This document shows, piece by piece, positions 26,393 to 35,921 of a stretch of 64,000 bases of DNA. The notes under the pieces are model-generated. The model ran no database searches and had not been told where the DNA came from. It saw only the letters and a list, made by a program, of their open reading frames with translations. The stretch spans positions 1 through 64,000 of the IMG/VR virus record IMGVR_UViG_3300033429_000002. One strand, given 5' to 3'. Source of the stretch: a virus. Position 1 is the stretch's first letter; each line of letters opens with the position of its first letter. The translations under genes and the position numbers were made by a program.

Positions 26393-26522
26393 TGTGCCTC
26401 TAATGGTGGAATATTTTTAAGAATGAGCGCCCGGCAATGGAGCAAGGCGGGTTTTAATCTTCCTTGCAATTACAGCCGTCACTATCAGGACTAACATTTT
26501 GTTGCCGCCACCGCTCCAATAT

Positions 26523-26648
26523 TGGTTGGGCAAGCAGGGTTCGAACCTGCAATTTTTAGTAAAATAGAGTTCCTTTTCTATCGAACCTCAGATTAAGCGC
26601 GCTGCTCTGCTATTTTACCGACGTGTCTACCAATTCCACCACTACCCA
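26523..26648 (-). tRNA. tRNA-Leu-like gene with an internal insertion
   Basis: On the minus strand a complete 5' acceptor (TGGGTAG) and Leu-type D-arm (GTGGAATTGGTAGACAC) pair with a 3' half made of T-arm GCAGG-TTCGAAC-CCTGC, acceptor TTGCCCA, discriminator A and encoded CCA. Between them lie 71 nt instead of about 31. This insert opens with GTAAAATAG and closes with CTATTTTAC (9 bp) and holds tRNA-like pieces (AGAGCAGCGCGC, a CTTAATC loop, GGTTCGA). No standard anticodon stem can be drawn. It begins 5 nt after the upstream gene ends. Confidence 0.6.
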
Positions 26649-26866: not shown

Positions 26867-26968
26867 TCAGTAACATGGTTCTGCAAACCACCGTTTCCTC
26901 TTTTGTTGAGAGAGCGGCAGGGCTTCTCGTGCCTTAAATGCCTGGATTAGCATTCCGTTTGTTTCCAT
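26867..26968 (-). CDS. 33-aa ORF after the rRNA-like element
   Basis: 33 codons from ATG 26968 with AAGGA 5 nt upstream. Inside it, CCGCTCTCTCAAC (revcomp at 26905-26917) resembles the boundary repeat of the two structured RNAs. It could be a real peptide or a decayed repeat. Confidence 0.35.
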   Translation of the reverse strand: METNGMLIQAFKAREALPLSQQKRKRWFAEPCY

Positions 26969-26986
26969 CTTATTCCTTATAGTTAA

Positions 26987-27155
26987 GAGAGCGGTGTGCT
27001 ATTACGCCAAAGGAGCAAAGACAGTCCACACGCCGTTTTCACTACTTGTTTTGTGTGCCGTTCTAGCTGTTCTTATGTCAAGCTACCCAGTTTATTTAAG
27101 GTTACCCACTCCACTCTTTAAAAGGTGGCTGCCTCTAAGCCAACTTCCCGCTCTC
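26987..27155 (-). ncRNA. Structured RNA resembling the 23S rRNA GTPase-associated centre
   Basis: Minus strand, closed by a perfect 8-bp stem GAGAGCGG/CCGCTCTC (27148-27155 with 26987-26994). From the 5' side it reads GUUGGCUUAGAGGCAGCC (27127-27144), one change from E. coli 23S nt 1059-1076, then UUUAAAG (27116-27122), about 105 nt of insert, then GCGUAAUAGC (26998-27007) followed by ACAC. These are the two loops of helices 43-44 that bind L11 and contain A1067 and A1095 in E. coli. The insert carries its own hairpins and the 10-mer UAGCUUGACA also found in 23S. It lies between two small genes with no overlapping minus-strand ORF. Confidence 0.75.
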
Positions 27156-27161
27156 ACGTTT

Positions 27162-35763: not shown

Positions 35764-35836
35764 TGGCGACTATAAAGAGACTCGAACTCTCATAATCCAG
35801 CTTGACAGGCTGGTGCATTATTCCTATTTTATACTA
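35764..35836 (-). tRNA. tRNA-Asp (GTC), 5' half unusual
   Basis: Minus strand: anticodon arm CCAGC-CTGTCAA-GCTGG (anticodon GTC), T-arm GAGAG-TTCGAGT-CTCTT, 3' acceptor TATAGTC, then GCCA with encoded CCA. The 5' acceptor (TAGTATA) pairs at only five of seven positions and the D-arm is shortened and AT-rich, so the gene may be decaying or may give a non-standard tRNA. Confidence 0.65.
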
Positions 35837-35844
35837 TATGGACA

Positions 35845-35921
35845 TGGTACTGCTGACATGGCTCGAACCTGCGATGACCACGTTGAAAGCGTGGTGACTT
35901 AACCTTCTTATCCACGGCAGC
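35845..35921 (-). tRNA. tRNA-Glu (TTC)
   Basis: Minus strand, 77 nt with encoded CCA. Acceptor GCTGCCG pairs with CAGCAGT (one mismatch), anticodon arm CCACG-CTTTCAA-CGTGG has anticodon TTC, T-arm GCAGG-TTCGAGC-CATGT (one mismatch). It starts 9 nt after the 3' hairpin of the large structured region, so processing from one transcript is likely. Confidence 0.7.

Follow-up and report, generated by a model that had tools for sequence, protein, structure and literature searches.

A family of phage RNAs resembling the GTPase-associated centre of 23S rRNA, encoded among tRNA genes and possibly directed at host ribosomal protein L11

Small stable RNAs of unknown function, rnaC and rnaD, are encoded inside the tRNA cluster of bacteriophage T4. 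Two other phage RNAs of unknown function, GOLLD and ROOL, are found in or near tRNA arrays (PMC12286853). For the ribosome itself, it has been established that the C-terminal domain of L11 binds helices 43 and 44 (H43/H44) of the 23S rRNA fragment 1051-1108, the GTPase-associated centre or GAC (PMC3592554), and that without Mg2+ the GAC RNA has negligible affinity for L11 (PMC8373061), so that it is the folded GAC which binds. The N-terminus of L11 is required for the activation of RelA, where it contacts deacylated tRNA (PMC4974054).

Here, the DNA analysed (the window) is a stretch of 64,000 nucleotides belonging to a phage record of 70 kb, in which terminase and portal genes and genes on the minus strand are found. 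A first-pass annotation had read positions 26987-27155 as a phage RNA mimicking the GAC; the coordinates are correct and the strand, not stated at the time, is minus (Table 1). The element directly follows a small ORF, starting after its stop codon, and is ordered GAGAGCGG-GAA-GUUGGCUUAGAGGCAGCC-ACC-UUUUAAAGAGU-101 nt-UUUG-GCGUAAUAGC-ACA-CCGCUCUC. In E. coli numbering, it holds a complete GAC (1051-1108), in which the hairpins of H43 and H44 are both present, position 1058 pairs with 1080, and a stem, P1, substitutes for the top of helix 42. The two loops of the L11-binding domain, said to be in order and almost unchanged, were recovered as such on the minus strand: the 5' half GUUGGCUUAGAGGCAGCC (27144..27127) is identical to E. 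coli 1059-1076 at 17/18 positions, and is the sole match within the window even when 3 mismatches are allowed (expected 0.11), and the 3' half GCGUAAUAGC (27007..26998) is identical to E. coli 23S at 10/10. The private closing stem is likewise there, as the 8 bp formed by GAGAGCGG and CCGCUCUC, and the interruption of about 105 nt consists of 101 nt plus UUUG, placed exactly between 1090 and 1091. One detail did not survive: the word UAGCUUGACA within the insert, taken for a piece of 23S domain V, is a chance match, as a 10-mer or longer is shared with 23S in 121/500 shuffles of the insert and by 29/149 other inserts, none of which contains the word itself. The P1 word GAGAGCGG is repeated in intergenic DNA at 26906-26918, about 75 nt downstream of the element, possibly within another hairpin.

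Table 1. Coordinates of the GAC-like RNA, its parts and related features (window positions unless a locus is named).
Feature	Position	Strand	Remarks
Whole RNA element (GAC mimic RNA)	26987..27155	minus	covariance-model match 27159..26983, 78.9 bits, E 1.4e-17 (rough)
P1 5' strand, GAGAGCGG, in place of helix 42 top	27148..27155	minus	pairs with 26987-26994; covaries in 104 representatives and in the 48-sequence alignment
GAC 5' half (23S 1056-1090): GAA, helix 43 hairpin GUUGGCUUAGAGGCAGCC, ACC, UUUUAAAGAGU	27113..27147	minus	
Insert arm, 101 nt, between 23S 1090 and 1091	27012..27112	minus	closing helix GGAG (27112-27109) / CUCC (27015-27012)
GAC 3' half: UUUG + GCGUAAUAGCACA (23S 1091-1103, U1101 to A)	26995..27011	minus	U1090-A1101 pair
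P1 3' strand, CCGCUCUC	26987..26994	minus	
tRNA-like RNA, 49-nt insert in anticodon loop (context)	26522..26647	minus	ARAGORN, introns allowed
tRNA-Asp and tRNA-Glu (context)	35764..35921	minus	same strand as element
L1 stalk copy (E. coli 23S 2110-2180)	L123:1641-1711	minus	element's strand; 51/71 identical
Isolated L1-stalk carriers (E. coli 2109-2180)	L123, L239, L240-L242, L244-L249, L251		

At gathering thresholds, Rfam found no rRNA or other family in the window, tRNAs only; the group I intron model (RF00028) had no match in the window, and neither ARAGORN nor Rfam recognized a tRNA or tmRNA at the element. Two covariance models were searched against the window. The bacterial LSU model (RF02541), at a relaxed threshold, gave 18.5 bits (E 0.0023) against a curated cut-off of 50, and there is no flanking 23S sequence. 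A covariance model built from 48 other phage sequences, the window being excluded, gave 78.9 bits (the E-value is approximate, the calibration having been short), and the same model gave 45.2 bits on E. coli 23S. The folding energy of the element alone is unremarkable (z = -0.41), so that comparison has to carry the argument for a structure.

The 5' half, searched as an exact 20-base pattern, matched 104 viral contigs. In 103 of these the GAC is isolated, with no surrounding 23S; the exception, L093, is a real 23S gene. A pattern of the 3' half alone matched at least 120 viral contigs, and the two patterns together give at least 180 loci in which both halves are present, a count in which two named phages and the record of the window itself are included, with 149 non-redundant loci among the matches listed. 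The patterns confirm each other. Many of the loci are incomplete contigs, and among those with enough sequence the 3' half was found in 75/76 of those selected by the 5' half, and the 5' half in 71/73 of those selected by the 3' half among the matches listed. In GTDB, one scan picked out 25 contigs, and in at least 17 of these bacterial sequences both the RNA and its closing stem are present (Clostridia, Deltaproteobacteria, Bdellovibrio, Nitrospirota and others); no match was found in the plasmids searched. Eleven distinct named phages in culture are carriers: Pseudomonas phages Milchi, Astolliot, UNO-G1W1 and pf16, Aeromonas 4_4572, Cronobacter GAP32, Pectobacterium CBB, Serratia BF, Erwinia Kaldavass, and Xanthomonas XacN1 and XaC1. 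No RNA is annotated at the element in any of the 11, and a few of the records have short hypothetical ORFs called across it. When the whole E. coli 23S was compared by BLAST with 50,697 phage records, leaving aside a few chimeric records of ssRNA phages and those with long host 23S, only positions 1054-1089 were matched, in five of the 11 named carriers, and the GAC was the sole piece of 23S found in genuine phages. Paenibacillus phage Pd_22F was dropped as a carrier, as its GAC belongs to a full 23S. Lack of conservation in related phages had been named as grounds for abandoning the idea, and the outcome is the opposite, a widespread family. We found no description of such an RNA in the open-licence literature searched or among Rfam families.

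The members share a single design, P1, the GAC 5' half, a covarying arm at 1090/1091 and UUUGGCGUARYAGCACA, all of which are found in the window element. Over 104 representatives, the nine pairs of P1 are paired in 77-100% of cases, with five or six pair types at each except the two innermost, and the helix that closes the insert, which starts right after 1090 and stops right before UUUG, covaries across its four pairs and is 70-100% paired. The 1058:1080 pair is held in 104/104 (43% expected if the positions were independent). In the 48-sequence alignment, 91.8% of cells are paired, versus 66.5% in shuffled and at most 53.8% in slid controls; double changes number 314 versus 110 in shuffled alignments, and the covariation score is 0.626 versus 0.149 (0/500 shuffles). 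Kinship of the rows can inflate the contrast with the shuffles; the slid controls, in which relatedness is kept, reach at most 0.193. The private stem seen in the window is one that covaries in relatives, and the comparative evidence strongly supports the original reading of a phage RNA that presents the 23S GAC. By sequence and covariation the window element is predicted to fold accordingly, with the H43 and H44 hairpins, U1060-A1088, G1059-C1079 and 1058:1080.

U1060, A1088, G1059, C1079, A1077, A1085 and G1087, which we take to form the tertiary core of the GAC (U1060, A1088, the G1059-C1079 pair, A1085, G1087 and A1077), are invariant across the 104 representatives. The tips are looser (A1067 in 92/104, G1068 in 87/104, A1096 in 72/104), with A1095 kept in 101/104, so the target loops U1066/A1067 and A1095 are mostly retained. 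Within the regions used for the motif searches conservation arises partly by selection, of which the covariation and A1101 in the 5'-selected set are free. A1101, present in 75/75 of these unselected members, is a signature absent from rRNA, as both E. coli and the rRNA consensus (Rfam, used here for comparison) have U. In all, it is nearly certain that a family of GAC-mimic RNAs exists in phages. The insert is 43-365 nt long across the family (median 136); CACCCC-N6-GGUAAGG is common to 35/149 inserts, that of the window being without it, and we propose that the variable arm may serve as a species-specific handle. Ten loci (L114, L127, L132, L148, L149, L159, L163, L175, L177 and L179) show a second, apparently hairpin-like insertion in the GAC, after CAGCCA (around position 1077).

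Every tRNA on the family loci lies on the element's strand (1098/1098). A tRNA is found within 40 nt of 62/149 elements (4.3% under random placement) and within 1 kb of 94/149 (35% under random placement); in pf16 the element fills the gap between tRNA-Asn and tRNA-Pro, and in UNO-G1W1 that between tRNA-Trp and tRNA-Arg. All 34 carrier records tested encode tRNAs, 2 to 71 each. The neighbours vary, being tRNA species of many kinds, upstream or downstream, or ordinary genes, with no constant downstream gene. In the window, the nearest tRNA-like gene lies 340 nt downstream. Its insert is too short for a group I intron and resembles parts of another tRNA (a GUAAAAUAG...CUAUUUUAC stem and GGUUCGAU); a 26-nt stretch of it had no exact match in the viral contigs. 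Phage tmRNA genes lie near the element at L019, L024, L050, L099, L126, L136, L177 and L188 (with tags such as ANTNFALAA and ANENFALAA), that of L099 ending 7 nt before it, and a permuted tmRNA-like RNA is found about 110 nt upstream of it at L007:6723-6932 (-). At L066:4597-5025 (+), a group I intron (64.8 bits) has the GAC RNA in its P6 region and interrupts a gene that, by our reading of its sequence, is presumably helicase-like; the GAC RNA is carried there as a predicted excisable RNA. Matches to the bL12 C-terminal domain exceed the cut-off in 5/34 carrier records, two of them full-length (the five are G004, G005, G010, G017 and Pseudomonas phage UNO-G1W1).

A BLAST comparison of all loci with E. 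coli rRNA gave 179 GAC matches and three others. The only other piece on the element's strand is an L1 stalk in L123, about 50 nt before a tRNA-Arg; a 27-mer resembling the 16S 530 loop in L114, on the strand opposite to the tRNAs, was set aside, and the family loci contain no copy of the sarcin-ricin loop. A scan with a core word of the L1 stalk found 16 contigs. After removal of L093 and of three that may be true 23S (L238, L243 and L250), twelve isolated copies remain, which fall into roughly six sequence types. For most of them the match spans 71-76 nt with 72-79% identity (the copy in L251 is cut by the end of the stored contig, and the match in L247 covers 25 nt only), and in the better types the base is closed by stems of differing but complementary sequence. 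Both L123 and L249 carry an L1 stalk together with a GAC RNA, as probably does L241; four copies lie just before a tRNA-Arg(ACG). The cultivated phages in the collection have no L1 stalk outside host 23S. The isolated L1 stalk is possibly a second mimic of an rRNA domain, and the pairing of an L11 site with an L1 site is notable because in E. coli a single operon has L11 and L1 as its two products. We tentatively extend this to the view that large tailed phages practise rRNA mimicry, in which the L11-site RNA family, probably of one origin, and in some phages the L1-stalk RNA, might act in trans as traps for both proteins of the host's L11-L1 operon, so that stringent control would be disabled or ribosomes remodelled during infection. 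Short 16S-like fragments were also seen in Enterococcus phage vB_EfeBG-143 (PQ433353.1:42558-42725) and in the Streptomyces phages Stella and Omar (OP751154.1:45557-45596; NC_054662.1:48645-48702), for which capture, an attachment site or contamination are options.

What might such an RNA do? We give an even chance to the reading that it is a stand-alone, trans-acting structured RNA that mimics the 58-nt GAC, binds host L11 and damps L11-dependent functions. The element would be transcribed together with the phage tRNAs, freed as a stable RNA by tRNA processing, and fold as a GAC; it could then bind host L11 through the C-terminal domain, and the bound L11 might be kept from ribosomes, drawn off them or presented elsewhere. 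That L11 is the direct partner seems to us a balanced proposition. The retained tertiary core fits L11 titration, and a strict core with loose tips, as inferred from the alignments, would be expected if selection acted on the fold and on the binding of L11 more than on that of factors. A homologue of L11 was found in 0/35 carrier phage records, so that the ligand would be the host's protein. On the other side, host L11 is abundant, and titration would therefore need a very abundant RNA; EF-G, release factors, or an rRNA-directed nuclease or methyltransferase as ligands would give the same conservation of the core; and the insert arm is kept throughout the family though unconserved, which also counts against this explanation. 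Of the functions that might be damped, the activation of RelA by deacylated tRNA is the best candidate, and its damping would leave a relaxed, relC-like host. Such damping could be useful to the phage because it floods the cell with its own tRNAs, raising the load of uncharged tRNA; a damped stringent response is nevertheless a doubtful branch. The next candidate is altered function of release factors or EF-G. Titration of the L10-L12 stalk, also raised in the first-pass annotation, is unlikely in view of the L10 site on rRNA, since an unrelated stem stands where the lower part of helix 42 would be.

An alternative that we regard as unlikely is that the RNA is a counter-defence decoy, bait for a host nuclease, modifying enzyme or toxin that recognizes the ribosomal GAC. 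The target loops are mostly kept, yet the tips presumably read by such enzymes (1067, 1068, 1096) are the less conserved part, and we know of no phage-defence effector that acts on the GAC. The element does have phage tRNAs as its neighbours, and RNAs of that class have been shown to evade defences directed at tRNA (PMC10264068, PMC11555353). It is also unlikely, and ranks next, that the direct partners of the RNA are translational GTPases or release factors, instead of L11, with a resulting shift in elongation or termination: the factor-recruiting bL12 domain in five carrier records would suit this, but the tip bases that contact factors are relaxed relative to the core, the loci lack a sarcin-ricin loop, and suppressor tRNAs are so rare on them (11/912) that stop-codon recoding was rejected as a general reason for the element. 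An improbable reading is that of a cis-acting element, which would regulate or punctuate a nearby gene or the array of tRNAs, host L11 serving as the sensor. Control of mRNAs by ribosomal proteins through leaders that resemble rRNA is established, and the element is always co-directional with the tRNAs, but its neighbours differ, without a constant downstream gene, and one copy lies inside an intron. Finally, functionless captured 23S debris or host contamination, which does occur in some phage records (Pd_22F, small records), can hardly account for the family given the strong covariation in the alignment, the cross-test of both halves, the exact common insertion point, the A1101 signature, the lack of flanking 23S in 103/104 contigs and the restriction to the GAC, of all 23S, in genuine phages.

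In many large bacterial viruses the tRNA genes are accompanied by a copy of the L11 site that had escaped annotation, which suggests that a ribosome look-alike may serve to capture some of the host's translation machinery. If the trans-acting L11 reading is true, these phages would influence host translation in a manner new for viruses, through a copy of a functional ribosomal domain that stands by itself. Such an RNA is easily missed, since it sits in the gaps between annotated tRNA genes and since rRNA-like sequence is commonly filtered out in RNA discovery. It offers a specific candidate answer to two questions: why there are gaps without a tRNA in the tRNA arrays of phages, and by what means a phage might cope with RelA when it brings in many uncharged tRNAs. 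It is also testable, as carriers have been isolated for Pseudomonas, Aeromonas, Serratia, Erwinia and other hosts.

Among known systems, the closest is the GAC of 23S rRNA itself (inside RF02541), with which the phage RNA shares both loop sequences, the secondary structure, the U1060-A1088 and G1059-C1079 positions and the 1058:1080 covariation; it differs in being isolated, outside any rRNA gene, and in its private P1, the arm at 1090/1091 (101 nt in the window), the added UUUG and A in place of U1101. The ribosomal-protein leaders (the L10 leader, RF00557, and the L1 leader of the L11 operon) are also RNA copies of a ribosomal-protein site on rRNA, but are cis-acting mRNA leaders of ribosomal-protein genes, whereas the phage RNA lies among tRNAs with no adjacent ribosomal-protein gene; Rfam found neither the L10 leader nor other such leaders in the window or in the 25 loci searched, and the 35 records lack an L11 gene. 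The T4 RNAs rnaC and rnaD resemble it as non-tRNA RNAs within a phage tRNA cluster, and were rejected as relatives, the family model giving only an out-of-place match of 12.9 bits in the T4 cluster. GOLLD and ROOL, whose Rfam models had no match in the window or in 25 loci, share the location in or near tRNA arrays; the phage GAC RNA is much smaller and contains an rRNA domain. Phage tRNAs and tmRNAs, lastly, are phage-encoded RNAs of translation from the same operons and strand, but the RNA described here mimics the ribosome itself and not a tRNA.
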